Below are positions 8,580 through 26,487 of a stretch of 64,000 bases of DNA, one piece after another (positions within the stretch are counted from its first letter, which is position 1; every line of letters begins with the position of its first letter). The notes beneath the pieces were generated by a model. That model was given only the letters and a program-made list of their open reading frames with translations, had not been told where the DNA came from and did no database searches. A program made the position numbers and the translations under genes. Source of the stretch: Hymenobacter swuensis DY53 (GTDB lineage Bacteria; Bacteroidota; Bacteroidia; Cytophagales; Hymenobacteraceae). The stretch is from the NCBI RefSeq assembly GCF_000576555.1, contig NZ_CP007145.1, positions 2,728,001-2,792,000 of the forward strand, written 5' to 3'.

Positions 8580-9656
8580 CTATTTCTGCCCCGCGTACCA
8601 CGACTGCCGCACCCGGATAAGGAGTTGCTCGGCGGCTTCCCGGTCGGGTGTTTCGGGTAAAGCAGACGTGGCAAAAGCAGCTTCTACCTGCGCTACCAGG
8701 GCATCGGCTTCGGTTATCAGCTGCTCGTACTCGAACTCGCCGCGGCGAATCTGGAGCAGGAAGTCCCGGTTGGGGCGGCGGACATGGAGGCGGCCGGTGG
8801 TGGCAATTTCCAGGGCCATGCCCAGCAGCCGGAATACGTGGAGCATATTTTTGGCGTCGTAGTTTTTGCCGTGCTGCACGGTGTTCTGGTACCGTTCGGG
8901 GTTGCGCTTCTGCTCCCACTCCTGGTACTCCCGAAACACGCGGCAGTAGGTGCTGTAGCCGTTACGGTTGAAGCTCAGATACGCTACCGGCGTCTCCCCC
9001 TTCGGCACGGCCGAGAGCAGCACGTCCTGGGAGGTTTCCGCGTCGCGCAGGAGGCCCCGGTAGCTGTGGCGGCGGGCGGGCGTTTCGTCCACGAACAGGG
9101 CGTACAAATCATTGAGGTGGTTCACGTTGGCCAGGCCGCACTGCGTAGGCAAGTAGCCGCGCCGTTCCAGCCAGGTGGCTACCGGCTGCGCGCCCGCACC
9201 CACCGTCACGTAGCAGAAATCCAGCACCGATTTGCGGGCGGGCGGCTCGGGGTGATTGATTTTCTTGTTGAGGCCCCGGGCCTTCCGGATCTGGGCCACG
9301 GCGTACTCGGCGAAGCTCTGGCGGCACAGCTGCGAGAGGAAATCCTCCACCCGAAACGCCTCGAACAGCGGGTGCCGGTACCGTACGCAGTCCTCGGGCG
9401 AGGCCAGCAGCTCCAGGGCCGTGGGGTTGCTCTTGAGCAGCAGTTCCACGAAGCGGCGCAGCTCGTAGTACACCTCATCGTTAGTATCATTGGCCACCTG
9501 GGGCACGTAGTCGAGGCCGTAGAACTCGGTTTCGGGCAGGATGAACACGCCTTTCAGGTCGGTGTCGGAGTGAGGCAAATCGGTACCGTAGGCGCGGCTG
9601 CCGCTCAGGGCCTCAAACAGAATCAGGCCGCGCTGGCGCAGGTCGTCGATGGTCAT
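8580..9656 (-). CDS. RlaP/YcgL-like nucleotidyltransferase (358 aa)
   Basis: A polymerase-beta-type nucleotidyltransferase. Near the N-terminus are the signature GS (19-20) and the DxD-type pair Asp31 and Asp33 in SGSRAYGTDLPHSDTD, which bind the metal and nucleotide in this superfamily. The long C-terminal part (KARGLNKKINHPEPP, NRNGYSTYCRVFREYQEWEQ) is typical of the larger proteins of the PF10127 family, named RlaP from its gene association with RNA ligases. The ATG at 9656 is chosen because an upstream extension to 9758 is translated from the inverted repeat at 9664-9771. A second, shorter relative is encoded at 10455-11222, and Pnkp and Hen1 lie further along, so RNA end processing is the likely role. 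The exact reaction is unknown. Confidence 0.8.
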   Translation of the reverse strand: MTIDDLRQRGLILFEALSGSRAYGTDLPHSDTDLKGVFILPETEFYGLDYVPQVANDTNDEVYYELRRFVELLLKSNPTALELLASPEDCVRYRHPLFEAFRVEDFLSQLCRQSFAEYAVAQIRKARGLNKKINHPEPPARKSVLDFCYVTVGAGAQPVATWLERRGYLPTQCGLANVNHLNDLYALFVDETPARRHSYRGLLRDAETSQDVLLSAVPKGETPVAYLSFNRNGYSTYCRVFREYQEWEQKRNPERYQNTVQHGKNYDAKNMLHVFRLLGMALEIATTGRLHVRRPNRDFLLQIRRGEFEYEQLITEADALVAQVEAAFATSALPETPDREAAEQLLIRVRQSWYAGQK

Positions 9657-9663
9657 AGTAGAA

Positions 9664-9771
9664 CGATTGTAGAGACGCGACCCTTCGCGTCTCGTCGTTG
9701 CTGAGGTTGTTTGGTTAGTTCGGCTCCGGTCGTTCTGGCGGAAGACGCGAAGGGTCACGTCTCTATAATCG
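9664..9771. repeat. Palindromic intergenic element, GAGACGCG family
   Basis: Arms 9664-9692 and 9743-9771 (29 bases, two mismatches) flank a 50-base centre. Each arm is itself nearly palindromic around CGCGaccCTTCGCGTC, so the element can fold as one long hairpin or two short ones. It lies in the divergent space between the nucleotidyltransferase and the acetyltransferase genes. The form resembles REP or small MITE-like elements. Confidence 0.8.
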
Positions 9772-9876
9772 TTTAATTAATCGTAATCGGTAACAAGCGG
9801 TGTGGTACTAGGTGTATTTTCTACTTTTGATCAGCGCCTCTTTTCACGCCTGACCACGGCCAAAACTAATTCCAAC

Positions 9877-10356
9877 ATGTCAAACCAGCAGGTAACGCTA
9901 CGACCAACGGAGGTAGCTGATCTGGCTGTATTATTCCAGTTTCAACTGAATGAGGAGGCAGCGCATCTGGCGGCCTTTATGCCCAAAGACCATACCGACC
10001 AAACGGCCTACCTCGCCAAATACCGCCGCTTCCTACTCGACCCCACCATCCACATGCAGAGCATTCTGGTGGACGGCGTGCTGGCCGGCAGCATCGCCAA
10101 GTTCGAAATCGAAGGCGAGGCCGAAATTACGTATTGGCTGGACAGGCGCTACTGGGGCCGGGGCGTGGCTACCGCCGCGCTACGTGGCTTCCTGCAGCTG
10201 GAGCCGGCTCGTCCGCTCATTGGCCGGGTGGCCTTCGACAACTTCGGCTCGCAGAAAGTCCTCACCACCTGTGGCTTTCACAAAGTGGGCACTGATAAAG
10301 GATTTGCCAGTGCGCGCCAAGCCGAGATAGAGGAATTTATTTACCAGCTCTCCTGA
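9877..10356 (+). CDS. GNAT acetyltransferase (RimJ/RimL-like)
   Basis: A 159-residue protein of the GNAT_3/RimJ type. It opens with VTLRPTEVADLAVLFQFQLN, has the acetyl-CoA-binding turn YWGRGVATAALRGFL around residue 93, and ends with the substrate-proximal segment VAFDNFGSQKVLTTCGFHKVG. The ATG at 9877 is used because the family begins about five residues before the LRPxxxxD motif. Enzymes of this type acetylate N-termini, amino-sugar antibiotics or small amines; the substrate is not predictable. It lies between the two RlaP-like genes but on the opposite strand, so it is not in their transcript. Confidence 0.85.
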   Translation: MSNQQVTLRPTEVADLAVLFQFQLNEEAAHLAAFMPKDHTDQTAYLAKYRRFLLDPTIHMQSILVDGVLAGSIAKFEIEGEAEITYWLDRRYWGRGVATAALRGFLQLEPARPLIGRVAFDNFGSQKVLTTCGFHKVGTDKGFASARQAEIEEFIYQLS

Positions 10357-10366
10357 CCGGTTGCCC

Positions 10367-10450
10367 GTAGCGCGAAGCCTTGGTTCGCGTATCGTTGCAA
10401 CTACCCATAATTGCCGTTCGACAGTATGCGAAGCAACGGCTTTGTGCTAC
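10367..10450. repeat. Palindromic intergenic element, GTAGCGCGAAGC family, copy 1
   Basis: Left arm 10367-10395 and right arm 10421-10450 pair imperfectly; both contain GTAGCrCrAAGCC and TTCGCrTA words. The same GTAGCGCGA...TTCGCG logic reappears in the larger element at 16704-16818. It fills the 98 bases between convergent genes. Confidence 0.6.
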
Positions 10451-10454
10451 AGCA

Positions 10455-11222
10455 TCACGGTTGCGGCTGCAGCCACGCCCGAAACACGGCATCCAGCGCC
10501 GACGCTGGGTTGGGCTGATGCGGGACGGGCAATGTAGCGCGGGCGGCCTGGCTAGTGGTGTATTCCTGCTGTAGAAAGGCGACCAGCGCACCCGGGCGCG
10601 GCGCGGTGGTTTGCTCGTCGGCGGTGGCTTTTTGAGTCAGCAGCTCATCGACTACGCCATCCAAAGCCGCCGGCAGCAATTCCCGCAGCATAGCAAACTC
10701 CATCGGCGGCACTTGGTCAGGATGACGTTGAATCCAGCTGGCGGCCAGCGCCGAGCGCAGGGCGTAGAACAGTCGCTTGAGGCGCACCTGTTCGCCGGTC
10801 AGGTCCTCCACTACCCCACGCCGCAGCTGGCCCAGGTAGTGGTGCAGGCCGGCGCGCGGGTTCCAGCAGGCCGGCAGCAGCGGCCCCAGCGCCGCCCGAA
10901 GCCCGGCCGCCTCCCGATACACCACCGGCGACTGGAGCCACTCAAACAGCGCCGCGTTGGAGCCGCGCAGCAGCTTCAGAGCCTTCCGCAGCTCCCAGCC
11001 GGCCAGGTCCAGCTCCGCATCCACGGGAAAGTTGAGCGTGTCGGGGCCGTCGTCGAGGGTGAGGTACCAGTCGGCCGGATGGCTGTAGATGAAGCGCACA
11101 TCATAGTCGGAATCCGGCGAGGGGAAGCCCCAGGCCCGGCTACCTGACTCGCAGGCATATAAGATGCGGATGTTGTGCTGGTCTTCGAGCTGGGTGAGGG
11201 CGGTTCGGATGCGGGCGTGCAC
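10455..11222 (-). CDS. RlaP/YcgL-like nucleotidyltransferase (255 aa)
   Basis: The second member of the same polymerase-beta-like family. ESGSRAWGFPSPDSDYDVRF carries the GS signature at residues 27-28 and metal-binding Asp39 and Asp41. The next segment, YSHPADWYLTLDDGPDTLN, is characteristic of YcgL-type PF10127 proteins. It lacks the extra C-terminal region of the 358-residue relative, so the two are diverged rather than duplicated copies. No signal peptide is present. The enzyme probably adds nucleotides to an RNA end or a protein in concert with RNA repair; substrate and acceptor are unknown. The start at 11222 agrees with the family's short leader before the GS motif. Confidence 0.85.
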   Translation of the reverse strand: MHARIRTALTQLEDQHNIRILYACESGSRAWGFPSPDSDYDVRFIYSHPADWYLTLDDGPDTLNFPVDAELDLAGWELRKALKLLRGSNAALFEWLQSPVVYREAAGLRAALGPLLPACWNPRAGLHHYLGQLRRGVVEDLTGEQVRLKRLFYALRSALAASWIQRHPDQVPPMEFAMLRELLPAALDGVVDELLTQKATADEQTTAPRPGALVAFLQQEYTTSQAARATLPVPHQPNPASALDAVFRAWLQPQP

Positions 11223-11368
11223 GGGCAGAACGGGTAATGGAAGGCGAAACAGGTTTCAGCAGTGCAAGGTAAAGTGCCGGGCCACTGTTTCGATGCGTAT
11301 GGCTACCTCATTCTGCCCACTATATTTGGCTGCCGCGCACCGCTTCGCTGGCTGTAACGCCTCATTCT

Positions 11369-12169
11369 GTGAACTACCGCATCCTTTTCTGGCTGCTGCC
11401 CGGCCTGCTCAGTGCCTGCACCCCCGATACTCCTGCTACCGAGCAGCCAACCCAGGACCCGGCGGCCGTGGGCACAGTGGAGGCGCCGACAGATGCAGCG
11501 GCCGATACGCTGGCTACTTTGCACTGGGAATCTGAGATGTGCACCTACACCGGGCGCTACGATACCCGCAAATACACCGCCCAGCAGCTCACCGACACCC
11601 ACGACCTGCTCAGGGGCGGGCAGCTCTCCACCTCAGCTACCGTCTTCAGGCCCGAGGATATTGCGAAGCTGAGTGTAGATACGCTGGAAGCGGAGTACAC
11701 CAAAGTGTTGGCTCATATCAAAGGGCTACAGCCCGTGCCGGACGCTCCGTGGCGGGAGTTAAAACGCCGCAAGCTCCAGGAAATCAACGACCAGTACCGT
11801 GCTACCAAGCTGACCATTCTGGGCTATGCCAACCCCAGCTTATTGGTAAACTCCACCTACCCGGCCGCGTGCAAAACCTACGTCAGGGGCCTGGCGGCCA
11901 ATAACGACAGTATGATCATTGCCAGCTGGCAGCAGTTGGTACGGGAGCAGCAAAAAAACAACAGCATCCCGGAAAGCCTGCAGGAGCAGTTTCAGCAGGA
12001 AGCCACCGCGCCCAACTGGCACGAATACGCCCAGGTAGCGCTGATTAGCTTCGGCTGGTGGAACTGCGTGAACAAAACTATCCGGAGCGCAGAGCCAACC
12101 GAGAAAATGTACCGGCAGTACGAACAGCTATTTGTGCATGTGGAGTCGGAATGCGAGGACGTAGACTGA
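11369..12169 (+). CDS. Lipoprotein of unknown function
   Basis: A 266-residue product that begins with GTG at 11369. The start is supported by a compact lipoprotein signal: hydrophobic ILFWLLPGLLSAC with the lipid-bearing cysteine at about residue 17. A Thr/Pro/Ala-rich linker follows, then a mostly helical, charged region (EYTKVLAHIKGLQ, WRELKRRKLQEINDQYRATK). Five further cysteines occur in the mature part. I recognise no family. Nothing suggests cotranscription with the peptidase gene 145 bases downstream except shared strand. Confidence 0.75.
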   Translation: MNYRILFWLLPGLLSACTPDTPATEQPTQDPAAVGTVEAPTDAAADTLATLHWESEMCTYTGRYDTRKYTAQQLTDTHDLLRGGQLSTSATVFRPEDIAKLSVDTLEAEYTKVLAHIKGLQPVPDAPWRELKRRKLQEINDQYRATKLTILGYANPSLLVNSTYPAACKTYVRGLAANNDSMIIASWQQLVREQQKNNSIPESLQEQFQQEATAPNWHEYAQVALISFGWWNCVNKTIRSAEPTEKMYRQYEQLFVHVESECEDVD

Positions 12170-12314
12170 TACTCCCTCTCTCTTAAATCAACCTTCTCCA
12201 CAACTGCCTGCGCGGGTACCAATGGGTACTTGTTGTGAGGACTAGCGCGCACCGGACGGAAGTTCACCACGCAACTTCCGTTACCTTACTCTCCTGAATT
12301 AACCCTCTACTTTT

Positions 12315-14009
12315 ATGGCACCGTCTCGCCTGCTTTCCGCTCCCCTCCTGCTCGGCCTGGCCCTGGCCGGCTGCCAATCGAAGCCCGCCGCCACCGAAAC
12401 GGCCGCCACCGCTGCCCCGACCGCCGCGCCGGATACAGCTGACGCCATCAGCGCGGCCAGCATCAGTAAGTACCTGCAGGCGGTTTCTTCGGATGAGATG
12501 CTGGGTCGCAAGCCGTTTACGGCGGGCGAGCAGCGCAGCACGCAGTATCTGGCCGATGAGTTCAAGCGCCTTGGGTTGCAGCCCGGCCCGAACGGCACGT
12601 ATTTCCAGCCGGTGCCGCTGGTGGAAATTACGGGTATGCCTTCCGCCACGCTGCAAATCAAGGGCAAAGGCCAGCCGCTGAACCTGGAGTACAAGACCGA
12701 TTTCGTGGCCTTTACCCAGCGCGAGCAGCCCGAGGTGAAGGTGACCAACTCGCCACTGGTGTTTGCCGGCTACGGCGTAGTGGCCCCCGAGTACGGCTGG
12801 GACGACTACGCCGGCCTCGATGTGAAGGGCAAAACCGTGGTGGTGCTCGTTAACGACCCCGGCAACGCCGGCCAGGATTCCACCCTGTTCAAGGGCCGGG
12901 CCATGACCTACTACGGCCGCTGGACTTACAAATATGAGGAAGCCGCCCGCCACGGCGCCGCCGGCCTGCTCATCATCCACGACACCCAGCCGGCCGCTTA
13001 CCCCTGGAGCGTGGTGCTAAGCGGAGCCACCAGCCCCAAGTTGCGCGCCCAGACCGCCAACAAAGGCGCCGACAAGTGCGCTCTGGAAGGTTGGCTGACT
13101 CTGGACGCGGCCAAAAAGCTGTTCCAGACCGCCGGCCTCAGCTACGACCAGCTCTACGCCGCCGCCAATACCCGCGGGTTCCGCCCCCGGCCGCTGGGCG
13201 GGCTCACACTCACGGCCAGCATCCAGAACAAGCTTCGCCGCCAGACCTCACGCAACGTGCTGGCCGTGCTGCCCGGCACCACCCGCCCCGATGAATACAT
13301 CCTCTACTCGGCCCACTGGGACCATTTCGGGGTGGGCAAAGCCATTGCCGGCGACTCCATCTACAACGGGGCCGTGGACAATGGCACCGGCCTGGCCGCC
13401 CTGCTGAGCATTGCCGAAGCCTTCCAGAAAACCAAAGAGAAGCCCCAACGCAGCCTCGTGTTTCTGGCCGTGACCGGCGAAGAGCAGGGTTTGCTGGGCT
13501 CGGCCTACTACGCGCAGCACCCGCCCTTCCCGCTCAACAAAACCGTGGCCGACCTAAACATGGATATGCTCTGGCCCTACGGCCCGATGAAGGACCTGAC
13601 GGTTATCGGCTACGGACAGTCGGAACTGGAGGACTACGCCCGCGCCGCCGCCAAGGAGCAAAATCGCTACCTGCTGCCCGACCAGACGCCCGAAACCGGC
13701 ATGTTCTACCGCTCCGACCACTTCAGCTTTGCCCACGTGGGCGTGCCCTCGCTCTACGCCAGCGGCGGTTTCGAGAGCCGCACCGGCGGCAAGGCCACCA
13801 TCGCCCAGCAGCGCCAGAACTACACCGCCACCATGTACCACAAGCCCGCCGACCAGTTCGACCCCAGCTGGGACCTCTCGGGCATTGCCCAAGACGCCCA
13901 ACTCTACTTCCGCGTCGGCCAGCGCCTGGCCAGTGAAACCACGTTCCCCAAGTGGCGCGAAGGCTCGGAGTTCAAGGGCGCGCGGAACAATAGCATGGGT
14001 GGGAAGTAA
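12315..14009 (+). CDS. M28-family zinc metallopeptidase with PA domain, lipoprotein
   Basis: A 564-residue exported peptidase. The lipobox LALAGC places the lipidated cysteine at about residue 19; an Ala/Thr linker follows. Residues 140-290 form a protease-associated insert (VFAGYGVVAPEYGWDDYAGL, GAAGLLIIHD). The catalytic domain shows the M28 zinc ligands and bases: SAHWDHFG (about 335), GAVDNGTG (about 355), TGEEQGLLGS with the Glu-Glu pair (about 388), LNMDM (about 415) and RSDHFSF (about 475). It is an aminopeptidase or carboxypeptidase acting on peptides in the periplasm or at the surface. It heads a same-strand run with the metallo-beta-lactamase-like and S41 genes. Confidence 0.93.
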   Translation: MAPSRLLSAPLLLGLALAGCQSKPAATETAATAAPTAAPDTADAISAASISKYLQAVSSDEMLGRKPFTAGEQRSTQYLADEFKRLGLQPGPNGTYFQPVPLVEITGMPSATLQIKGKGQPLNLEYKTDFVAFTQREQPEVKVTNSPLVFAGYGVVAPEYGWDDYAGLDVKGKTVVVLVNDPGNAGQDSTLFKGRAMTYYGRWTYKYEEAARHGAAGLLIIHDTQPAAYPWSVVLSGATSPKLRAQTANKGADKCALEGWLTLDAAKKLFQTAGLSYDQLYAAANTRGFRPRPLGGLTLTASIQNKLRRQTSRNVLAVLPGTTRPDEYILYSAHWDHFGVGKAIAGDSIYNGAVDNGTGLAALLSIAEAFQKTKEKPQRSLVFLAVTGEEQGLLGSAYYAQHPPFPLNKTVADLNMDMLWPYGPMKDLTVIGYGQSELEDYARAAAKEQNRYLLPDQTPETGMFYRSDHFSFAHVGVPSLYASGGFESRTGGKATIAQQRQNYTATMYHKPADQFDPSWDLSGIAQDAQLYFRVGQRLASETTFPKWREGSEFKGARNNSMGGK

Positions 14010-14074
14010 GCCCTGGGGCCGGCTATTTACCGACCATGTTCTCTCTACTTTATCAGGATAATTAGTTAGGTACT

Positions 14075-15532: not shown

Positions 15533-15641
15533 TGGCGCGGTGGTCAGCTTCTGGGCGCCGCCGCAACTACGAGCGTTATTTACCCCAGCATAAAGTACCC
15601 TCCCCAACCAACCCTACCGGCCGAATCCGCATCTTCCCGGC

Positions 15642-16682
15642 ATGAAAAGACTATTGCTCGTGACCTTATGCGCGGCGGCTTCCTCCGGAGCCCGCGCCCA
15701 AACTACCCCGGCCCCACTCCCCGATTCCGTACAAGCCTTCCTCGATAAGAGCCTGATGCTGCTGGAAACGCACTCTTTGGAGCGCAACGCCGTGAACTGG
15801 CCGCAACTGCGCCAGGTGGTGCAGCAGAAAGCCCAGGGCGCGCAGTTGGTGCGGGATTTGCTGCCCATCTACCCCTATGTATTCGAGCAGCTCCGGGACG
15901 ACCACGGCTGGCTGACCTATAAGGGCAAAACCTACAAGTGGCGCAACCCCGCCCGCCCCGCCTACGCCAACACCGCCGTAAAAGCGGCGCTGGCCCAAAA
16001 GCCCGGTCTGGTTATCCGGATGCTGCCCGGCCGCGTCGGCTACGTGCAGCTGCCGGGCATCAACGCCGGGGGCAGCCTGCAGGCCATGCGCGACGCGGCC
16101 CTGGTGGTGCAGGATTCTTTGTGCCGCGTCAACCCCGACCGAGCGCGGGCCTGGATTATCGACCTGCGCCTGAACGACGGCGGTGCCATGGCCCCCATGC
16201 TGGCCGGCCTCGCCCCCATCATCGGCGACGGTCACCTGGGCGGCTTCGTGGACAAAGACGGCAAGCCCGACCAGCAGTGGTACCTCCGCCAGGGCAATTT
16301 CTACATGGATACGATGCGGGTCACGACGCTGCAAAACCGCTGCCCCGTGCGCCGCACCGATAAGCCCGTGGCCGTACTGCTCAGCGGCATGACGGCCAGC
16401 TCGGGCGAAATCGTGGCCATCAGTTTGCGGGGCCGCCCCGCCACCCGCTCGTTCGGGGAGCCCACCTACGGCGCCACCACCGCCAACGAAAGCTACCGCA
16501 TCAGCGGCAGCAGCTACCTCACCATTGCCGGCATGCAGGAAACCGACCGCAACAAAGTAGTCTACAAAACCATCCTCACCCCCGACGTCCTCATCCCCGG
16601 CGGCGACAACTTCACGGACCTCGGCCAGGACGCCAAAGTAGCCGCAGCGCTGAAGTGGCTGAAGAAGCAGAAAAGTCGGTAG
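15642..16682 (+). CDS. S41-family peptidase (C-terminal processing protease-like), exported
   Basis: A 346-residue protein with signal peptide (LLLVTLCAAASSGARAQ). It has the S41 core: VGYVQLPGINAGG, AWIIDLRLNDGGAMAPMLAG (about 170-190) and VAVLLSGMTASSGEIVAISL, where the first Ser of SGE (about 252) is the expected nucleophile. No PDZ domain is seen between the leader and the core, so it is the short form. The usual catalytic lysine region after the nucleophile reads FGEPTYGATTANESY, without a clear Lys, as in the tricorn-like branch. It probably degrades peptides in the periplasm. It is the last gene of the same-strand run and is followed by a long palindromic repeat. Confidence 0.85.
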   Translation: MKRLLLVTLCAAASSGARAQTTPAPLPDSVQAFLDKSLMLLETHSLERNAVNWPQLRQVVQQKAQGAQLVRDLLPIYPYVFEQLRDDHGWLTYKGKTYKWRNPARPAYANTAVKAALAQKPGLVIRMLPGRVGYVQLPGINAGGSLQAMRDAALVVQDSLCRVNPDRARAWIIDLRLNDGGAMAPMLAGLAPIIGDGHLGGFVDKDGKPDQQWYLRQGNFYMDTMRVTTLQNRCPVRRTDKPVAVLLSGMTASSGEIVAISLRGRPATRSFGEPTYGATTANESYRISGSSYLTIAGMQETDRNKVVYKTILTPDVLIPGGDNFTDLGQDAKVAAALKWLKKQKSR

Positions 16683-16703
16683 CACGTTGCCGGCTGACGA
16701 TTA

Positions 16704-16818: not shown

Positions 16819-16839
16819 TTAAAAAGCCATTTGCCCGGA

Positions 16840-18087: not shown

Positions 18088-18107
18088 AGTCCGCAGTAAA
18101 GAACACT

Positions 18108-20774
18108 CTACAACCGCGGGTCCACGGCTTCGCTTTCCAGCGCCAGCACGCCGAATACGCACTGGTGCACTTCGCGCAGCGGGGCACCGGCCACGAACCG
18201 TTCCAGGCCTTCCACGCCGAGGGTAAATTCGCGCAGGGCGAGGTTGCGCTTGGATTTCACGTTTCGCTCGCGCAGGCGCTCCAGATTGCCGGGTAGCAGG
18301 TAGTCGGGGCCGTAGATGATGCGTAGGTACTCACGGCCCCGGCACTTGAGGGCGGGCTGCACCAGCGTTTTGCGGCCACCGGGGATGAAGTCGTAGGGCT
18401 TCACCACCATGCCTTCGCCGCCAGCCGCCGTGAGGTCCAGCCACCACTGGGTGGCGGCTTCCACGTCGGCAATGTCCTGGAGGTGCACCACGCGGTAGGG
18501 CGTGGCCCGCAGCAGGCCTTCATCGGCGAGGCAGATGCCGCGCAGGGTTTCCATGTGCCAGGCGTGGTCCTTGTCGAAGTAGGTGCGGCCCTCGGTGGCG
18601 AGCAGGTGGAACGGGGCCAGGCGCAGATCAGCGAGGCTTTCCACGGGCCAGCAGTAGCGGCGGTAGGCGTCGGCGTAGTGCTGGGCGGCCGACTGGCGGG
18701 CGGTGGTGCGGGCCAGCAGCGCCTCCACCCCGTCGAGGCCGCGGGCGGCGGCCTGGGTGAGGACGGCCGCCGCTTCGGGCAGGGCGGCGGTGGCCGCCGC
18801 GGCTACCGCGGCGTACTGGTTCTTGATCAGCTCCTGGGCCTTGGCCGACCACGGCAGCAGCTCGGCATCCAGGCAAACCCAATCGGTGCTGAACCGCTTC
18901 CAGAAGTTACTGGCCGTGAGGGCGTCCTGCAGGCGCGCGAGGAAGGCGGCTTCCAGCGCAGCATCAGTGAAGAAGTTGCGGCCGGTGCGGGTGTACACCT
19001 TGCCCGGCCCCTCGCCTACCACCCCGAAGCGGCGGCGCGCGGCGTCCTCACTGCGAGCCACCACCACCACCACGCGACTGCCCATGTGTTTTTCCTCGCA
19101 CACCACCCGCTCCAGCCCCTGGCGGCGGAAGTAGTCGAAGGCTTCGGCCGGGTGCTCCAGCATATCCGGCAGCGCCGAGGTTTCCGACGGGCTCATGGTG
19201 GGCGGCAGGTACAGCAGCCACTTCGGATTCAGGGCAAACCGGCTCATCACCTCCAGCGCCGCCGCCGCGTTTTCCTCCCGAATGGTGACCGACGGCAACA
19301 GCCGCGTCTTAATGATCTGCTTGCCCAGCACATCCTGCAAATCCAGCAGGTCGTCGTGGGCTTGCTGGGCGGAAAGTTGCGTGGTCTGTTGTTGGTTGTC
19401 CGTTGTCAGCCCGTCCTGGTTATCGGCTATGCCTTCACCAGCAACTGACAACTGATTTCTGACAACTGACAATGGCCGGACCGGCTCGCAGTATACCCGC
19501 TGGGCGGGCACGGATACCAGCTCCCGCTCGGGGTAGCGCAGGGCGGTGAGGCGGCCACCGAAGACGCAGCCGGTATCAATATCGATGGTGTTGTTGAGCC
19601 ACTCGGGGTCGGGCACGGGCGTGTGGCCGTATACCACGGTGGCCCGACCGCGGTACTCCGAGGCCCAGTTGTAGCGCACCGGCAGCCCGAATTCGTCGAT
19701 TTCGCCGGTGGTTTCGCCGAACAGCGCGAAGGCCCGCACGGCGCCCGAGCCGCGGCCCTGCATTTCCTCGCGCATGCCCGCGTGGGCCACCACCAGCTTG
19801 CCCCCATCGAGCACGTAGTGGCTCACCAGCCCATCCAGAAACTGCCGCACCTGGCTTTTGAACGTGTCGGATTCCAGGGCCAGCTGCTGCACCGTTTCGG
19901 CGAAACCGTGCTTTTCGTTGACCTGCTTGCCGTTGAGGTAGCGCAGTAGCTTGATGTCGTGGTTGCCGGGCACGCACAGCGCCAGCCCGTCGCGCACCAT
20001 GCTCATCACCAGCCGCAGCACCTGCGGTGAGGCCGGCCCACGGTCCACCAAATCGCCCAGAAACAGGGCCCGGCGGCCGGCCGGAGCCGTTACGCGCACG
20101 CCCAAATCCCGCACGTCCGTTACGGGCTCGGTTTCCACCGCGTAGCCCAGCTCCGCGAGCAACGTCAGCAGCTCGTCGTAGCAGCCGTGCACGTCGCCGA
20201 TGATGTCGAAGGGGCCTGTTTCCTGCTTGCGGTTGCTGTAGAGCGGGTCGCACTGCACGGTTTGTACCGCGTCGATTTCCTCGGGGCCGCGCAAATGGTA
20301 CACGTGGCGGAAGCCCTCCTGCTTAAGCGACTTCAGACTACGGCGCAGCTGCTGGCGCTGGTTCGGGATGACGTGGCGGCCCAGGTGCTGCCGCTCGGCG
20401 CGCTGGCGGTTGCGGTCCTCGGCCAGGCGGTCGGGCACGTCGAGGACGACGGCGGTGGGCAGCACGTGGTAGTCGCGGGCCAGCTGCACGAGGGTTTTGC
20501 GGGCTTCGGGCTGCACGTTGGTGGCGTCCACCACCGTCAGCAAACCGCGCTTCAGGCGCAGCCCCACCATATAGTGCAGCAACGCAAACGCCTCGGGCGT
20601 GGCCGACTGGTCGTTTTCATCATCCGCCACCAATGCCCGGCACTGGTCCGACGACACAATTTCGGTGTCCTGAAACAGCCGCCGCGCAAACGTGGATTTG
20701 CCCGCCCCGGAGGTACCGATGAGCAGGACGAGCGAGAGTTCGGGAAGCTTGAGGGAGGTAATAGGCTGGGGCAT
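18108..20774 (-). CDS. pnkp: Polynucleotide kinase-phosphatase-ligase, bacterial RNA repair (Pnkp)
   Basis: An 888-residue three-domain RNA repair enzyme. Residues 12-170 are the 5'-OH kinase, with P-loop GTSGAGKS at 20-27. Residues 188-425 are the metal phosphatase that removes 2',3'-cyclic and 3' phosphates: GDVHGCYD (193-200), GDLVDRG (240-246), GNHD (270-273), His331 and GHTP (383-386). Residues about 475-888 are the ligase/adenylyltransferase: EKHMGSR with the AMP-accepting Lys562, and GEGMVVKP later. Length and order match characterised bacterial Pnkp. The ligase is known to need Hen1, which is encoded at 25072-26487. Residues 434-465 form an unusual Gln/Asn/Thr-rich insert read from a repeat (19381-19474). 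A divergent gene starts 47 bases upstream. Confidence 0.96.
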   Translation of the reverse strand: MPQPITSLKLPELSLVLLIGTSGAGKSTFARRLFQDTEIVSSDQCRALVADDENDQSATPEAFALLHYMVGLRLKRGLLTVVDATNVQPEARKTLVQLARDYHVLPTAVVLDVPDRLAEDRNRQRAERQHLGRHVIPNQRQQLRRSLKSLKQEGFRHVYHLRGPEEIDAVQTVQCDPLYSNRKQETGPFDIIGDVHGCYDELLTLLAELGYAVETEPVTDVRDLGVRVTAPAGRRALFLGDLVDRGPASPQVLRLVMSMVRDGLALCVPGNHDIKLLRYLNGKQVNEKHGFAETVQQLALESDTFKSQVRQFLDGLVSHYVLDGGKLVVAHAGMREEMQGRGSGAVRAFALFGETTGEIDEFGLPVRYNWASEYRGRATVVYGHTPVPDPEWLNNTIDIDTGCVFGGRLTALRYPERELVSVPAQRVYCEPVRPLSVVRNQLSVAGEGIADNQDGLTTDNQQQTTQLSAQQAHDDLLDLQDVLGKQIIKTRLLPSVTIREENAAAALEVMSRFALNPKWLLYLPPTMSPSETSALPDMLEHPAEAFDYFRRQGLERVVCEEKHMGSRVVVVVARSEDAARRRFGVVGEGPGKVYTRTGRNFFTDAALEAAFLARLQDALTASNFWKRFSTDWVCLDAELLPWSAKAQELIKNQYAAVAAAATAALPEAAAVLTQAAARGLDGVEALLARTTARQSAAQHYADAYRRYCWPVESLADLRLAPFHLLATEGRTYFDKDHAWHMETLRGICLADEGLLRATPYRVVHLQDIADVEAATQWWLDLTAAGGEGMVVKPYDFIPGGRKTLVQPALKCRGREYLRIIYGPDYLLPGNLERLRERNVKSKRNLALREFTLGVEGLERFVAGAPLREVHQCVFGVLALESEAVDPRL
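19381..19474. repeat. Repeat sequence inside pnkp coding region
   Basis: On the plus strand GTTGTTGGTTGTCCGTTGTC is followed 43 bases later by CTGACAACTGATTTCTGACA and a further ACTGACAA. These are inverted copies of a short GTTGTCAG unit, with two more CAGTTGTC units in tandem on the right. The reading frame crosses it without a stop and gives residues 434-465 of Pnkp. Similar TTG-rich repeats flank the element at 51842-52040. Confidence 0.65.
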
Positions 20775-20821
20775 CAGAGATAAAACGCTTTATATTTAGC
20801 CGTAATGAATATGCTACAGCT

Positions 20822-21370
20822 ATGAAAATCGACCAGCGGCTCAATACCCTCACGTATCAGGAGTACAACAACTTGCTGAGTCAGCGCCAAAAGTACACCG
20901 ACCTAAATACTCTCGGACTATTCCGCTCCATACTTGAGAACGAAAAGCTCGACCTGCTGCAGAAAATAGCCATTCGCGACCAGGCTATGGCAGCATTTCA
21001 CAAAACCTTCGGGTTTCTTCAGCTCAAAGACCCAGTGACTTATTTTGAGTTAACGACACTGGGGCAGCAGCTTACCGTAGCCGATGAGGCCCAGCGCTGG
21101 GCGGATATCCGAGCTAACCAGCGGAAAATTCTGAGCGACAAAAAGCTGCGTCACCGCAACTTTGGTACTTACTCCAAGCATATTTGCTGGGATGACACCT
21201 GCCCGCTGAACGGCGTGATGCTACAACAGGACCGCAATAAGCGTGCAGTGCGGCCCATGTCGTTCTGCTTTGATAAAAACCAACATACGGTCCGACTGAA
21301 GGCAATAGCCCGCAAGCAGGACCGCAAGTTCTTCAGGCAATCGACGCTCAGTCAATTTGATGAGAAGTAA
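20822..21370 (+). CDS. Protein of unknown function, divergent from pnkp
   Basis: A 182-residue cytoplasmic protein I cannot assign. It starts 48 bases from the pnkp start on the other strand, so the two share one regulatory space. The N-terminal two thirds are helical and charged (LTYQEYNNLLSQRQKY, LDLLQKIAIRDQAMAAFHK). The C-terminal part has a compact motif, FGTYSKHICWDDTCPLNGVM, with a Cys-x4-Cys pair and a further Cys in MSFCFDKN; this could bind a metal. The end is strongly basic. It ends 8 bases before the SUKH gene start, suggesting cotranscription with it. The base composition is a little poorer in GC than its surroundings. Confidence 0.65.
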   Translation: MKIDQRLNTLTYQEYNNLLSQRQKYTDLNTLGLFRSILENEKLDLLQKIAIRDQAMAAFHKTFGFLQLKDPVTYFELTTLGQQLTVADEAQRWADIRANQRKILSDKKLRHRNFGTYSKHICWDDTCPLNGVMLQQDRNKRAVRPMSFCFDKNQHTVRLKAIARKQDRKFFRQSTLSQFDEK

Positions 21371-21377
21371 GGCGTGC

Positions 21378-21818
21378 ATGACTATTCAGCAACTCATAGC
21401 AACCCTCAAAGCAGATCTGCCGCAGACAGATATGACGCTGTACCCGTCCGCCAGCGCACAACTGATGCAGCAACTCGAGGCAGCGTTAGGCGTAGTCCTT
21501 CCTTCTGACTTTCGGGAGTTTTACGTCTTTTGCAATGGGTTTGAATCAGCTGAATTTCTGTTCCATGTCACTCCAATTGAGGAAGTTATCCATTTCAAAG
21601 ACTACCGGCCTCATCAATTCCTCTTTGCCGAGTATGGAGCTTGCGTTGATTTTTGGATGGTGAAAATACTACCGGAGAGCAGCGGCTACCGGATTTTGAG
21701 CCAGGGTCCAGATGGAGAAATGGTCTTTCTTACCGATTCGCTGGCTTTATTCATTTACCGGTTCTTACAGGGCGGCGTTTTTAAATTGATTGACTGGGCG
21801 TCTGAGCTTACCGACTGA
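21378..21818 (+). CDS. SMI1/KNR4 (SUKH) family protein
   Basis: A 146-residue protein of the SUKH superfamily: LEAALGVVLPSDFREFYVFCNG is the family's hallmark N-terminal segment, followed by the beta meander LFHVTPIEEVIHFKDYRP and a C-terminal SLALFIYRFLQGG helix. ATG 21378 is used; earlier in-frame TTG 21357 and ATG 21360 overlap the preceding gene. SUKH proteins often act as immunity proteins against secreted toxins, including nucleases, but lone copies are also common. No polymorphic toxin is encoded nearby. The 182-residue gene before it is its only close partner. Confidence 0.88.
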   Translation: MTIQQLIATLKADLPQTDMTLYPSASAQLMQQLEAALGVVLPSDFREFYVFCNGFESAEFLFHVTPIEEVIHFKDYRPHQFLFAEYGACVDFWMVKILPESSGYRILSQGPDGEMVFLTDSLALFIYRFLQGGVFKLIDWASELTD

Positions 21819-21880
21819 CTACTGGTAGAAGCGCCAATGCGTACTATTGATGCCTGACAAGCACCCTCCTACCGCGCGTG

Positions 21881-22813
21881 ATGCGGAATTTCCCCACTAC
21901 CCAAGTTTTCTGCTCAATGCTCAATGCTATAGCCAAGCTCGATGTATCGGCCCATGAGAGCACACACGCACTGCTACTGTACGATTACCAGCACCAGCGT
22001 CAGGAAGAATGGCCGGAGTTTGCGGGCTACCAGGTGCTTGATATTGCAAACAACGGCGCATTGCTGGTAGTGGCCAGATCCTGCGTGCAGCGGGGCGCGA
22101 GCAAGAAAGAACTGTTGGTAGTTAGTCGCCCCGAGCGCAACATCGCATTTGCCACGAGCAAATATTATGTGTACGACGCCAAGCTTGATACCACCGCGCA
22201 AAAGCTCCTGGTGGTAGCGCAGGGTAAGAAGCCCTTTTGCCTTGATTTGCCTTCTCAGCATATCATCGGCGAGATGCCCGCTACCATTCGCACGTTCAGG
22301 GGCGACGCGCACCTACCCACCAATACCTTCTACGCCCCGAGCGAGCTAAAGAAAAACAAGCTATACCTACTTAATTTCGACACGGGCAGCATCACCGAAG
22401 CGACGCTGCCCGTCAACACTGGTATTACCCGGCTGCGTTTCTCGCGCGACCAGCAATTCTTGTACTGCGTTACCCAAAGCAACGTCCTCTGGTGCTTCGA
22501 TAGTGAGTTGAATTTCCGCTGGCAAACCGACTGTAAAGCCCTCGGTAAAAAGGACGGGAATATTTCCGCCGCCGGCATATTCCTGTCGGAGGACGGCCGC
22601 CTGCTGTGCTTACCCGTTAGCGCCACCGAACGCAACAACTGGGGCGAGGAATACGTGTTCGACGCCGCTACCGGCGAATTGCTGCGGCGGTTAGCTAACT
22701 ATCCGCACAGAGGACGGGTAGCGGCCGCCTTCTTTGGTTCCGAAGTGCTGCTGCACGGCGGCCACACCTTAAGCCTGGAATCCGGCCACGTTTCGGGGCA
22801 ACCCGCGTGGTAG
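21881..22813 (+). CDS. Propeller-like protein of unknown function
   Basis: A 310-residue soluble protein with repeated short-strand blocks: HALLLYDYQHQRQEEWPEFA, ITRLRFSRDQQFLYCVTQSN, VLWCFDSELNFRWQTDC and EYVFDAATGELLRRL. This is the pattern of WD40 or PQQ-type propellers. A start at 21917 (MLNAIAKLDV) is possible. No enzyme motif or signal peptide is seen. It is the last gene of the three-gene plus-strand group that begins divergently from pnkp. A second propeller-like protein is encoded just downstream of pnkp, but the two are not obviously homologous. Confidence 0.6.
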   Translation: MRNFPTTQVFCSMLNAIAKLDVSAHESTHALLLYDYQHQRQEEWPEFAGYQVLDIANNGALLVVARSCVQRGASKKELLVVSRPERNIAFATSKYYVYDAKLDTTAQKLLVVAQGKKPFCLDLPSQHIIGEMPATIRTFRGDAHLPTNTFYAPSELKKNKLYLLNFDTGSITEATLPVNTGITRLRFSRDQQFLYCVTQSNVLWCFDSELNFRWQTDCKALGKKDGNISAAGIFLSEDGRLLCLPVSATERNNWGEEYVFDAATGELLRRLANYPHRGRVAAAFFGSEVLLHGGHTLSLESGHVSGQPAW

Positions 22814-22865
22814 TCCCTCCCCCCGTCCTTCAGCAACCAAGCCCCCCATATGCTCATCCACGCTC

Positions 22866-24836
22866 CTACAGCCCGCCCGTGATGCGGAACTCCACGCGAC
22901 GGTTGAGGCGGCGGGTGGCTTCCTGCTCGTTGCTGGCACGGGGCTCGATGCCGCCGAGGCCGAGGCCGGTGATACGTTCGGCCGCCACGCCGTGGCTGAC
23001 CAAATAGGCTTTCACGACGGCCACGCGCTGCTCGCTGAGTTGCACGTTCAGCTGCGGGTCGCCCTGGTTATCGGTGTGGCCGCGCAGCTCGATGGTCAGC
23101 TCCGGGCTGGTGGCGAGCAGGTCCACCAAGCGGTTGAGATCGGGCGCTGACGAGGGCAGCAGGACAGCTTTGCCCTGCTCAAACTCCACGTTATCGAGGC
23201 GCAGCAGGACGCCGGGGTGCAACGGCCGCAGCACAATATCCTGAAAGGAAGGGCCGGCCGGCAGCTGATAGACGGTATCCAGAGGCAGATAGCCCGGCAG
23301 CTGCACCCGCACCTGGTAGGGCTGGGCAGGCACGCCGGTCACCAGAAACTCCCCCGCCGCCGTGAGCGTACGCCCGGCCGCCGAAGTTCCCGGTCCAACC
23401 ACCGACAGCCGCGCCTGCGGCAGCGGCGCTTGGCTGTCCGCCGCCAGCACCCGCCCCAGCCAAGTGGCCGCCGGCGGCGACGGCGGGACGGGGAGGCTGG
23501 CCGCCTGGTTGGGACGAAACAGGTTGCAGCCGGCCAAGTCAGTGTACACGCCACGGCGCACATAGGTGGCCTGCTGGCGGGCCAGATCTATTTCGTACAC
23601 TGATTTGGGGCCGGCCACGTACAGCCGCCGCCGGCCGCTGGTATCCTGCTGCATCAGCAGGTCGCTGTAACCGCCCTGGGCTGGCAGCCCGGTCAGAGGC
23701 AGCGGAGCCGGAGCCGGCTGCTGCGTGTGCAAATCGATTTTGAGCAGCGTGCCGTTGGTGCTGTACACTTCGTAAAGCGTGCCGGTATCATCGAGGCAGA
23801 AGTTAGCGTGCGTGCCCGCGCCGGCAAAGCCCACAGCCGGAAAGTACGGGGCGTTGCGCAGCGGGTCACGGCCCCAGACCACCGTCACTGAGTCGGTTAC
23901 CGGGCTGACGCGCACCAGCAGGTTGGCGTCGTTGGTGATAAACAGCAGATTACCCCGGACATCGGTGGCGGCCGAAATCCAGACGTTGCCGGAGCCCTGG
24001 GCCGGCAGTTCCCAAGTGGTGTAGCCGCCCTGGCGCGTGGTGGGATTATAGCGGTACACCCGTTCGGGCTGGTCGGTGGGTGATTTGGTGACGGAATACA
24101 GGCAGTTGTCAAACCCTTTGGCCAGCGCGTACGACTGAAACGGCAGTACCCGCCGATGTACCCGGGGCGGAGCCGTCAGGTCGGCCGCCGCAAACTCGTG
24201 AATAGTGCGGCAGTCGTCTTCCCAAATGCCATCATGCACCCGCAAAGCGGCAATACCATACAGCTTATCGTCGCAGAGCTGATCGGCGTAGCGGCGGCTG
24301 GGCCGGCCGGGTCCGACAAACCCGAAGGAGGCAACCAACTGCCGCCCCGCCGCCAGATACTGCGCATCATGAGCGGCAGCAGCCCGGTATTCCAGCTGAA
24401 ACTGGTAGCCGCCCCGCCATAACAGCCGGCCCACTACGCGGGTGCGGGCTGCCGTATCGGCGTACGTATACTCGTAGTGGAGTTCCTGGTACGGGCCGGC
24501 ATCGTGCTGGTCGAGGCGCACTACCCGGACCTGCGGCAACAGCAGCAGGGCCTGCCACACCGAGTCGGCCGGGTCAGCTGCCAGAGGCGGCTGGTTCAGC
24601 CGGCTCGCGGGCAGCGGCTGACTCGTGAGCTGCACCACGGCAGGGGCCGCTGCCCAGGCAGTACCCGCGTAGAAACTCACGTTGGGCGCGGCCTGCTCCC
24701 GTACCTGCCAGCCGTGCGGATATGTGACCTGGTAGCCGGTGCCGGCATCGGTAAACGTTTGCCAGTCGGTAAGGGCCTGCGCCCCGGCCGGCCAGCTAAC
24801 CACAACCGCACCCAGCAGCAACGAAACAAAACGCAT
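22866..24836 (-). CDS. OmpA-family outer membrane protein with propeller and regulatory-like domains
   Basis: A 656-residue exported protein. ATG 24836 (MRFVSLLLGAVVV...AGA) is preferred over ATG 24866 because a TATTTTTGC promoter element at 24870-24878 would put transcription start near 24866. After a lipid- or carbohydrate-style N-terminal domain (WQTFTDAGTGYQVTYPHGW), the middle looks like a propeller. Around 460-540 is a carboxypeptidase-regulatory-like domain (WLGRVLAADSQAPLPQARLS). The last 115 residues are a peptidoglycan-binding OmpA domain (VEFEQGKAVLLPSS, IELRGHTDNQGDP, LSEQRVAVVKAYL, NRRVEFRI). It likely tethers the outer membrane to the cell wall. It separates Pnkp and Hen1 but has no evident role in RNA repair. 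Confidence 0.9.
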   Translation of the reverse strand: MRFVSLLLGAVVVSWPAGAQALTDWQTFTDAGTGYQVTYPHGWQVREQAAPNVSFYAGTAWAAAPAVVQLTSQPLPASRLNQPPLAADPADSVWQALLLLPQVRVVRLDQHDAGPYQELHYEYTYADTAARTRVVGRLLWRGGYQFQLEYRAAAAHDAQYLAAGRQLVASFGFVGPGRPSRRYADQLCDDKLYGIAALRVHDGIWEDDCRTIHEFAAADLTAPPRVHRRVLPFQSYALAKGFDNCLYSVTKSPTDQPERVYRYNPTTRQGGYTTWELPAQGSGNVWISAATDVRGNLLFITNDANLLVRVSPVTDSVTVVWGRDPLRNAPYFPAVGFAGAGTHANFCLDDTGTLYEVYSTNGTLLKIDLHTQQPAPAPLPLTGLPAQGGYSDLLMQQDTSGRRRLYVAGPKSVYEIDLARQQATYVRRGVYTDLAGCNLFRPNQAASLPVPPSPPAATWLGRVLAADSQAPLPQARLSVVGPGTSAAGRTLTAAGEFLVTGVPAQPYQVRVQLPGYLPLDTVYQLPAGPSFQDIVLRPLHPGVLLRLDNVEFEQGKAVLLPSSAPDLNRLVDLLATSPELTIELRGHTDNQGDPQLNVQLSEQRVAVVKAYLVSHGVAAERITGLGLGGIEPRASNEQEATRRLNRRVEFRITGGL

Positions 24837-24869
24837 CAGCCGCAGCCAACCCGGGATAGATACCATTCC

Positions 24870-24878
24870 GCAAAAATA
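24870..24878 (-). promoter_or_regulatory. Bacteroidota-type -7 element for the OmpA gene
   Basis: The minus strand reads TATTTTTGC, matching the TAnnTTTG element of Bacteroidota housekeeping promoters. Transcription would begin close to 24866, which favours the start codon at 24836. Confidence 0.45.
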
Positions 24879-25071
24879 CAGAAGCGGTTGTTATTTTCGT
24901 TTCCCGCAGTCTTTCACCTGTTTTTCAGGCTGGTTATCCGCCTGGACACTTACACTATTTCTTTACAAAATCCTATAGCATCACAACACCTACGCGGGCC
25001 ATCGTCACCGTATCGGCCTGCGTATAGCGAGTGAGCAGGCCATGTTCTGACAAGAACCTAAGAAAGCAGGC

Positions 25072-26487
25072 TTACTGCTCAAACACGGCCAACTGCGAGG
25101 GCGCGCCTACTTCCGCGTATTCCGGGCCCAGCGGCTCCAGGCGCACCCGGTAGCCGTGGCGAGCAGCCACACCTTCGGCCCAGGCCGCAAACTCGGCCCG
25201 GGTCCACTCAAAGCGGTGGTCCTGGTGGCGGAACTCACCGGCCGAAAGAGTTTCGTAGCGCTGGTTGTAGTCGGCATTGGGGGTGGTGACGAGCACGCTG
25301 CCGGGCCGGGCGCGGGCAAATACTACCTGCTCGAAGGCAGCCAGCCGGTTTTCATCGAGGTGCTCAATTACTTCCACCACAGCCGCCGCCTCGTAGCCAG
25401 CCAAACGTGCATCGTGGTAGAGCACCGAGCCTTGGGCCAGGGTGAGCCGCTCGCGCTGGCGCGGGGGCATTTCCGCAACGTGCAGCCGCTGCTGGGCCCG
25501 TTCCAGTTCCCGCCACGACACATCCAGGGCCAGAACGTGCTCAATCTGCGGGTTTTGCAGCAGCCGGCGCACCAGCTTGCCTTCCCCACAGCCCAGGTCC
25601 AGGACCCGCTTAGCCCCCAACCGCCGGATTTCTTCGGCCACGCGGTCCAGGCGCAGGTCGTGCAGCTTCTGCTTTGCCCCTACCGCTTCCGGCTCGTGCC
25701 GGGCTGCTTCTTCCGCCACCAGCTCCAACACCTCATCCGAGGCTTCCGCGTCGGCGGCCAGCAGGCGTTCCAGCGTGGGATTCACGTACTCAGCAAAGCG
25801 CAGGTAACGCCGCGTAATAAACTCCCGCTCAGGGTGCTGCGCCAGCCAGCCGGCACCCCGGCGCAGCAGCTTTTCGGCTTCCTCCCGGTTAATCCAATAA
25901 TGCTTATCCCCCCGGTCCAGTACCGGGATGAGCACGTACAGGTGACTGAGCAGATCCTGCAGACGCAGGGCCGGGTGGCGCAGCCGCAACGTGAAGTAGC
26001 GGCTGCTTCCCCACTCCGGTCGGGTCGGGTCGAGCAGGTGCGCTTCGGTTTCCACCGCGTAGCCCAGAGGCGCGAACAGCCGCTGCAGCTGCTCGGCGCT
26101 GGCGGCGGGCATCACCGCCACGGTGGCTTCGAGGGGCAGCAGCGTATCGGGCAGCTCGGGCCGGTCTTTGCAGGTGCCGTTCATGGCCGTATTGAAGGCT
26201 CTCGACAGCGCGGTGCTCAGGAAAGAAGAAGCCACGTAGGGCCGGTCGTTCACATACTGTTCCAGCGCGAAGCCCTCCCCGGCCGGCCCCCGGTGGTTGC
26301 GCACCAGGGCCACGGGGTCAATGTCAAGCAGCAGGGCCACGGTGCAGCGCTCCGCCGTGGCTTCGGGGTAAAAGATGTGCGCCTGGCCGGCGGTTATGTC
26401 CACCGTCTGGAGACGGGCGGGGTTCTTGTGCAGCAGGTAGCCTAAATCGGTGGCGGGCTGGTGGGTGGTAGTGATGGTAAGGAGCAT
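25072..26487 (-). CDS. hen1: Hen1, 3'-terminal RNA ribose 2'-O-methyltransferase
   Basis: A 471-residue two-domain protein. The N-terminal 240 residues (LLTITTTHQPATDLGYLLHK, GTCKDRPELP, IPVLDRGDKHYW) are the bacterial Hen1 domain that activates the Pnkp ligase. The C-terminal domain is the methyltransferase: SAM motif LDLGCGEG at 296-303, the metal-binding set Glu372, Glu375 and His376 in EVIEH, and His424 in RHQDHRFEW. It methylates the 2'-OH of the 3'-terminal nucleotide at a ribotoxin cut before Pnkp seals it, so the repaired RNA resists a second cut at that site. The ATG at 26487 matches the conserved MLLTITTT start. It is about 4.3 kb from pnkp on the same strand, whereas the two are usually adjacent. 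Confidence 0.96.
   Translation of the reverse strand: MLLTITTTHQPATDLGYLLHKNPARLQTVDITAGQAHIFYPEATAERCTVALLLDIDPVALVRNHRGPAGEGFALEQYVNDRPYVASSFLSTALSRAFNTAMNGTCKDRPELPDTLLPLEATVAVMPAASAEQLQRLFAPLGYAVETEAHLLDPTRPEWGSSRYFTLRLRHPALRLQDLLSHLYVLIPVLDRGDKHYWINREEAEKLLRRGAGWLAQHPEREFITRRYLRFAEYVNPTLERLLAADAEASDEVLELVAEEAARHEPEAVGAKQKLHDLRLDRVAEEIRRLGAKRVLDLGCGEGKLVRRLLQNPQIEHVLALDVSWRELERAQQRLHVAEMPPRQRERLTLAQGSVLYHDARLAGYEAAAVVEVIEHLDENRLAAFEQVVFARARPGSVLVTTPNADYNQRYETLSAGEFRHQDHRFEWTRAEFAAWAEGVAARHGYRVRLEPLGPEYAEVGAPSQLAVFEQ

Follow-up and report, generated by a model that had tools for sequence, protein, structure and literature searches.

The 64,000-nt stretch of Hymenobacter swuensis DY53 analysed here (the window; NZ_CP007145.1, positions 2,728,001 to 2,792,000, forward strand) encodes the RNA-repair proteins Pnkp and Hen1 together with two nucleotidyltransferases of family PF10127 (RlaP), a short RlaP-a and a long RlaP-b, all on the minus strand and within 17.9 kb in total. 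On balance, these four genes are best read as one RNA-repair system directed against RNA-cutting toxins, probably acting on tRNA, in which the RlaP proteins would add nucleotides before the break is sealed. First, Pnkp would take off the 2',3'-cyclic or 3' phosphate and phosphorylate the 5' end. Second, where a toxin or exonuclease has removed at least one nucleotide, RlaP-a or RlaP-b would extend the freed 3'-OH. Third, Hen1 would methylate the 2'-OH of the 3' end, restored where necessary, and finally Hen1-activated Pnkp would seal the break. The first, third and fourth steps have been reported for homologous Pnkp/Hen1 pairs and are carried over by homology, and the second is suggested by family membership and gene context. 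We infer that the RlaP step would follow dephosphorylation and precede methylation. Why there should be two RlaPs with differing C-terminal parts is a matter for guesswork; they may deal with different lesions or add different nucleotides.

The identity of all four genes is clear. An earlier reading of the window (the original prediction) had placed them on the minus strand, non-contiguous over about 18 kb, with motifs in each; open reading frames (ORFs) and profile matches bore out the placement, and alignments, profile matches and a motif check bore out the motifs. Pnkp joins PF13671 (AAA kinase), PF00149 (metallophosphatase) and PF16542 (PNKP ligase, 601.9 bits) in one chain, belongs to the NCBIfam equivalog TIGR04075 (1386 bits, cut-off 750), and aligns with solved Pnkp domains in a PDB search, the ligase with an E-value of 2.4e-159. 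It holds GTSGAGKS, GDVHG, GNHD and KHMGSR, which we take to be the catalytic motifs. Hen1 matches PF12623 (Hen1_L, 353.9 bits) plus a methyltransferase domain, belongs to equivalog TIGR04074 (668 bits, cut-off 340), and resembles solved structures 4dqz and 3jwi. Its EVIEH and HQDHRFE motifs are presumably catalytic (EVIEH and H..HRFE in general form). By homology, Pnkp is thus assigned as a 5'-OH kinase, 2',3'-cyclic/3'-phosphatase and RNA ligase, and Hen1 as an N-terminal Pnkp-activating region followed by a 3'-terminal 2'-O-methyltransferase.

The two RlaPs are, judged by their sequences, different proteins. RlaP-a matches PF10127 over its full length (247.9 bits, cut-off 23). RlaP-b scores 86.5 bits against the same cut-off, through residues 46-159 of its long ORF and profile positions 20-139 of 249. 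Each has a Pol-beta-type nucleotidyltransferase head of roughly 85 residues, with GSRAWG...SDYD in RlaP-a and GSRAYG...SDTD in RlaP-b, plus a C-terminal region of about 150 aa and about 260 aa, respectively. When profiles of 42 RlaP-b and 41 RlaP-a sequences were compared, only the head aligned (83 columns, 37% identity); the C-terminal parts do not align with each other. The G, the two S and both D of DxD are invariant in 42/42 RlaP-b and 41/41 RlaP-a sequences. The invariant D72 of RlaP-a pairs with D60 of RlaP-b, which is conserved in at least 90% of sequences and lies five residues before an invariant E65; D72 and D60 would be the third catalytic acid. Across the four genes dN/dS is 0.11-0.26 against three to four close relatives (RlaP-b 0.11-0.15, RlaP-a 0.20-0.26). 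With motifs intact and dN/dS low, a reading of either RlaP as a dead copy was rejected. An RlaP-b from Hymenobacter sp. APR13 shares 93% identity with the window's RlaP-b across 91% of the long ORF. The AlphaFold2 model of RlaP-b has a mean pLDDT of 86.7 and a pTM of 0.63, and NCBIfam gave no match for either RlaP.

A chance cluster can be dismissed. The host genome (5.25 Mb) has only two PF10127 matches by profile search, both of them in the window, and RlaP and Hen1 co-occur across genomes. The original prediction had called for a comparison of related genomes, and the association appeared in the host's family, on an rpoB tree and in the wider order. Among 120 genomes of the family, RlaP was found in 54, Hen1 in 50, Pnkp in 53, and all three in 48. 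RlaP and Hen1 were both present in 48, RlaP alone in 6, Hen1 alone in 2, and neither in 64, leaving 8 discordant genomes. The corresponding counts in the window's genus (n=43) were 34, 2, 1 and 6. Not every gene scored as present is whole: RlaP-a of G036, Hen1 of G041, G102 and G110, and Pnkp of G110 are broken or split. G087 and G113 contain Pnkp fragments only.

The association also holds with tree correction. An rpoB tree was used that covers 100 of these 120 genomes; the 20 omitted belong to one genus of the family, g3, and have none of the three gene families. On this tree at least 20 changes are needed for RlaP and 18 for Hen1. Over 18 independent pairs, Hen1 followed RlaP in 13.9 on average, opposed it in 1.0 and was unchanged in 3.0 (median p 0.001). 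A genome with an RlaP fragment only, G103, was scored here as having no RlaP.

Beyond the family, the association extends to 80 further genomes of the same order, where RlaP occurred in 35/42 genomes with Hen1 and 5/38 without. All 42 Hen1 genomes were counted, including the partial cases G364, G375, G419, G452 and G556, and G378 was scored RlaP-positive on a contig-edge fragment; the 38 genomes without Hen1 were a non-random set picked by handle number. Because those 38 include many small genomes, a cut at 4 Mb was applied, which left RlaP in 34/40 genomes with Hen1 and 4/13 without. Both RlaPs were present in 17 of the 42 Hen1 genomes, RlaP-b only in 15, RlaP-a only in 2 and a fragment in 1, so RlaP-b is the steadier companion of Hen1 in the order. 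The two kinds were assigned by profile coverage, and weak second matches (G384, G398, G407, G412) were not scored as RlaP-a. In the 35 genomes with both RlaP and Hen1, the two lay within 30 kb of each other in 10; no linkage was seen in 25, of which 3 have them far apart on one contig, though in draft genomes contig breaks may account for the rest. In a sample of 247 genomes from the phylum, Hen1 was found in 4 and RlaP in 17.

The arrangement of the genes adds to this association. In 43 of the 48 family genomes having all four genes, they lie within 25.1 kb, in the order hen1-pnkp-rlaPa-rlaPb in 34, rlaPa-rlaPb-hen1-pnkp in 8, and with hen1 inverted in 1 (the three pieces of RlaP-a in G036 were taken as one gene). 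The two RlaPs share a strand in 48/48. The halves are apart in the other five genomes, more than 1 Mb apart on one contig in G059 and G090, and on different contigs in G045, G053 and G084, where about 40 kb or more separates them from the contig ends. In G114 and G078, Pnkp is directly adjoined by the RlaP-a ORF. The tightest packing is that of G264, a genome from outside the family: judged by the longest ORFs, neighbours in the series hen1, pnkp, an unknown gene, rlaPa and rlaPb overlap or are no more than 20 bp apart. The unknown gene encodes a 294-aa protein with no Pfam match. The earlier inference that the RlaPs belong with Pnkp and Hen1 therefore draws support from co-occurrence, conserved gene order, and abutting or overlapping ORFs in some genomes.

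In the window itself, the four genes are separated by genes on the plus strand, among them those for an M28 peptidase, an S41 peptidase and a SUKH/SMI1 protein, so a single four-gene operon in the host genome was rejected. Linked loci span 5.6-25.0 kb by domain coordinates and the window 17.2 kb. The dispersed layout described by the original prediction is thus true of the window but represents only one end of this range. Since compact relatives exist and the intervening genes vary between genomes, it is best read as a locus into which unrelated genes have been inserted. The SUKH/SMI1-KNR4-type protein is encoded between pnkp and hen1 and has relatives at the loci of six genomes, the host included. 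PADLOC gave only weak matches among 10 window proteins (to the SUKH protein and to the methyltransferase part of Hen1). A scan of the window for tRNA found none, and a scan against Rfam found no family above its gathering score.

The RlaP pair is not restricted to the company of Pnkp and Hen1. Nine of the 247 phylum genomes (same class, other orders), and G329 from another class, have both RlaPs and no Hen1 match by PF12623; G153, G195, G223 and G336 of the phylum sample have RlaP-a only. An RtcB relative lies in the fetched stretch of 5 of those ten pair-bearing genomes. It belongs to a cluster of 14 genes from 13 genomes, family members included, identified as RtcB by a Pfam scan of one member, clustering and profile search. 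G323 and G140 have a Pnkp1-type kinase-phosphatase, an Rnl, a T4 Rnl1-type ligase and a Hen1 relative near the pair, and G206 has relatives of the Pnkp1-type kinase and the T4 Rnl1-type ligase. No relatives of these repair genes were seen in the fetched stretches of G183 (a 7.6-kb contig) and G329. We also scanned a set of named loci, the best 80 of 554 that encode an RlaP-b relative, in order of their similarity to an RlaP-b of a different class; all are from Bacteroidota except one record titled Chlamydiales, and many end at contig edges. In these 80, RlaP-a is present in 61, at a distance of 100 bp or less from RlaP-b in 56, and matches were found to RtcB within 10 kb in 31, Pnkp in 9, Hen1 in 7, WYL models in 27 and TROVE in 7. 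RtcB matches number 1-6 per genome in the 92 family genomes with any, and 31/80 appears far above the roughly 1% we would expect from an unsimulated estimate. These results fit the original prediction's statement that PF10127 genes associate with RNA ligases, as Pnkp in the window also does. They also call for a correction: RlaP is not specific to Pnkp/Hen1, since RtcB stands beside the same pair in other Bacteroidota. Appearing beside RtcB or Pnkp1-Rnl-Hen1 elsewhere in Bacteroidota, the RlaP pair therefore looks portable.

This raises the possibility that RtcB is the main partner of the RlaP pair, which would have been left near Pnkp/Hen1 by a former large locus shared by several RNA-repair genes and would still serve a distant RtcB. 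We regard this as unlikely. The preponderance of RtcB over Pnkp at the named loci speaks for it, as do several genus g3 genomes in which a single locus combines RtcB and TROVE with the RlaP pair and Hen1-Pnkp. The host genome also encodes an RtcB (C3:1840143), 0.89 Mb from the window locus and about 2 kb from a TROVE gene. Within the genus, however, RtcB is near-universal (42/43, including 6/7 genomes without RlaP; 92/120 in the family), so RlaP follows Hen1/Pnkp there and not RtcB. In addition, G083 has RlaP and Hen1 with no RtcB match.

A second alternative is that the RlaPs do not mend ends at all and instead transfer nucleotides to intact tRNA or protein, for example to block or control a toxin or the repair enzymes. 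The Pol-beta superfamily with a GS-DxD head includes MNT-type antitoxins and MenT-type toxins. The RlaPs share this head, and their C-terminal parts have no assigned function and cannot be aligned with each other. Against this, several unrelated RNA ligases are found nearby and, in a few viral contigs, polyA/CCA-type and Thg1 enzymes as well, all of which points to RNA ends. Of 50,697 phage records, 280 contain relatives of RlaP-b and 80 contain relatives of RlaP-a. Profiles run on viral loci, the best 80 of 92, gave matches to Pnkp1 (4), Pnkp (2), RtcB (1), TROVE (1) and RlaP-a (1), and Pfam identified two polyA/CCA-type polymerases, one Thg1 and one kinase among 15 chosen neighbours of viral RlaP-b. 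In phage BcepSaruman an RnlA-like ligase lies 0.7 kb from the RlaP-a relative. Nor does another constant companion suggest itself: at the fetched family and phylum loci, where not all families were named, the most widespread of the other gene families (an OmpA-type protein) reaches 16 genomes, versus 66 for RlaP and 56 for Pnkp. We consider this alternative quite improbable.

The least credible alternative, that the RlaPs and Pnkp/Hen1 merely travel together in a patchily kept locus, is compatible with at least 20 changes on the 100-genome tree, with the unrelated genes that interrupt the set, and with the ease of joint loss through linkage, but it sits very poorly with order and strand kept in 34/43 linked loci despite varying genes between, and with co-occurrence that persists in the five family genomes with halves apart and the 25 order genomes with no linkage seen.

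Several observations weigh against gap filling by RlaP as a part of Pnkp/Hen1 repair. RlaP is found without Hen1 in 6/54 family RlaP genomes: G003, G057, G076 and G115 carry RlaP without Hen1 (G115 has RlaP-b only, and RlaP-b of G003 has an internal stop), G103 has just the fragment, and G056 has a broken Pnkp, a short RlaP-b ORF and no Hen1. Conversely, 2/50 family Hen1 genomes (G035 and G100), as well as G250 of the phylum sample, have Hen1 and Pnkp with no RlaP, and 7/42 order Hen1 genomes have no RlaP, with Hen1 in pieces in G375 and G419 and partial in G556. RlaP is dispensable to genomes with Hen1 and Pnkp. Given the linkage, single deletions may account for most of the co-loss within the family; joint deletion alone is an unlikely explanation, given the 25 order genomes and 5/48 family genomes in which the genes are apart or no linkage is seen. 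The profiles used found no ligase in 40 of the best 80 of 554 RlaP-b loci, many of which are cut by contig ends. Ten of the 15 chosen viral neighbours were unrelated or matchless and one was DNA-ligase-like, and phage PTm1 has no annotated RNA ligase within 6 kb. As the host genome has RtcB too, RlaP could act with RtcB. Finally, searches of the PDB by sequence and by profile returned weak hits or none, and no credible match, for either RlaP.

Other genes recur near the RlaP pair (Table 1). In several genera of Cytophagales, a fusion of a WYL-WCX transcription regulator with a PhyH-type dioxygenase is encoded no more than 8 kb from RlaP pairs. Profiles found this fusion at 14 loci, two records probably having been seen twice, and Pfam confirmed 7/14; NCBIfam gave no match for the one such protein scanned. 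Four more loci have PhyH alone, directly after or overlapping rlaPb (one Pfam-confirmed), with a separate WYL regulator 3-4 kb further on. TROVE proteins (cluster 17) occur at six family loci of genus g3. Five loci of this genus (L130, L137, L155, L166, L178) pack the RlaP pair, RtcB, a TROVE/Ro60 protein and Hen1-Pnkp into about 15 kb, and 4/5 of them have the WYL-PhyH gene. At L202 the pair is accompanied by three other genes, two of which, for the DUF434-DUF5616 protein and the protein c75, recur at 6 and 7, respectively, of the best 80 of 554 named loci; relatives of the L202 neighbours are found in L230, L251, L267, L268, L271, L279, L281 and L282. The window also encodes two further multidomain proteins.

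Table 1. Coordinates of the four genes and of other features. ORF starts are the first possible ones; features without a locus handle (L) are in the window.
Feature	Position	Strand	Remarks
RlaP-b (long RlaP)	8580..9656	-	358 aa from likely start Met at 9656; ORF reaches 9758
RlaP-a (short RlaP)	10455..11222	-	255 aa; full-length PF10127 match
Pnkp	18108..20774	-	888 aa; kinase, phosphatase, ligase domains
Hen1	25072..26520	-	first Met at 26487, the end given by the original prediction
SUKH/SMI1-KNR4-type protein	21357-21818		between pnkp and hen1
Multidomain protein	1481-7633		2050 aa; TonB plug, carboxypeptidase-like and alpha-2-macroglobulin domains
Multidomain protein	49563-50891		protein-kinase domain joined to leucine-rich repeats
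WYL-PhyH fusion	L137:17370-19172		
WYL-PhyH fusion	L212:7134-9152		
WYL-PhyH fusion	L218:2732-4477		
WYL-PhyH fusion	L221:6811-8556		
WYL-PhyH fusion	L225:7299-9044		
WYL-PhyH fusion	L247:6725-8476		
WYL-PhyH fusion	L253:1-1854		
Stand-alone PhyH	L255:11074-11790		Chitinophaga and Flavihumibacter (this and the next three)
Stand-alone PhyH	L256:11074-11790		
Stand-alone PhyH	L294:11074-11787		
Stand-alone PhyH	L293:11080-11793		
Three genes near RlaP pair	L202:6786-9158		TatD-type DNase, DUF434-DUF5616 protein, ~230-aa protein (c75)
Protein between pnkp and rlaPa	L209:7498-8382		G264

It is tempting to speculate further. RlaP-a and RlaP-b might form a gap-filling module, independent of the ligase, that plugs into the unrelated Pnkp-Hen1, RtcB and Pnkp1-Rnl-Hen1 systems, with labor split between the two by lesion or nucleotide. 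In some lineages the PhyH-type dioxygenase, fused to a damage-sensing WYL regulator or encoded just after RlaP-b, might restore or check a modification on the repaired nucleotide. We offer this extended model as a long shot.

The system resembles known ones in part. According to the excerpted text of PMC4411300, Pnkp heals and seals RNA, Hen1 methylates it and activates the ligase, and the pnkp and hen1 genes known to that paper are always in the same operon. The window Pnkp and Hen1 correspond to this repair with 2'-O-methylation in their equivalog membership and their alignment with solved domains. Their genes differ in lying 4.3 kb apart with plus-strand genes between, outside the same-operon rule, and in having two RlaPs near; pnkp and hen1 do overlap or lie close in some other genomes. 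The Pnkp1-Rnl-Hen1 complex of Capnocytophaga gingivalis, as excerpted from the same paper, has the same activities spread over three proteins, whose relatives are the ones described above for G323 and G140. In contrast, the window has a fused Pnkp, and among those of its genes that were scanned neither a separate Rnl nor a T4 Rnl1-type ligase was seen.

The RlaP family itself is known from Burroughs and Aravind 2016, through later papers. The available portion of PMC7824862 names RlaP, credits the 2016 paper and predicts that RlaP restores lost nucleotides before ligation, and that of PMC6514570 places RlaP across several counter-RNase repair systems. The family, its company of RNA ligases and several repair systems, and the predicted nucleotide restoring are the same here; two RlaP kinds side by side, tracked with Hen1/Pnkp in Cytophagales, differ from what these portions describe. 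A lesion that would require RlaP is at hand in RloC, which excises the wobble nucleotide and so could defy simple healing and sealing (PMC2610378, in excerpt); the T4 Pnk/Rnl1 scheme in that excerpt has no nucleotide-restoring step, unlike the system proposed here. The open-access literature searched, which did not extend to the 2016 founding paper, yielded no description of the four-gene set, and no experimental test of gap closing by RlaP was found in the literature searched. Nucleotide addition before sealing and the presence of RlaP in diverse repair systems are already in print. What the present analysis adds is the tree-corrected co-occurrence, the two-RlaP pair common to several ligase systems, and the WYL-PhyH fusion near the pair.

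Sealing a tRNA is useless to the cell if the toxin took a nucleotide, and RlaP is predicted to close that gap. The locus brings together a natural set, a methylating Pnkp/Hen1 and two RlaPs, with compact relatives that could be expressed whole. Through it, one could test whether bacterial RNA repair restores lost letters, and which ones.

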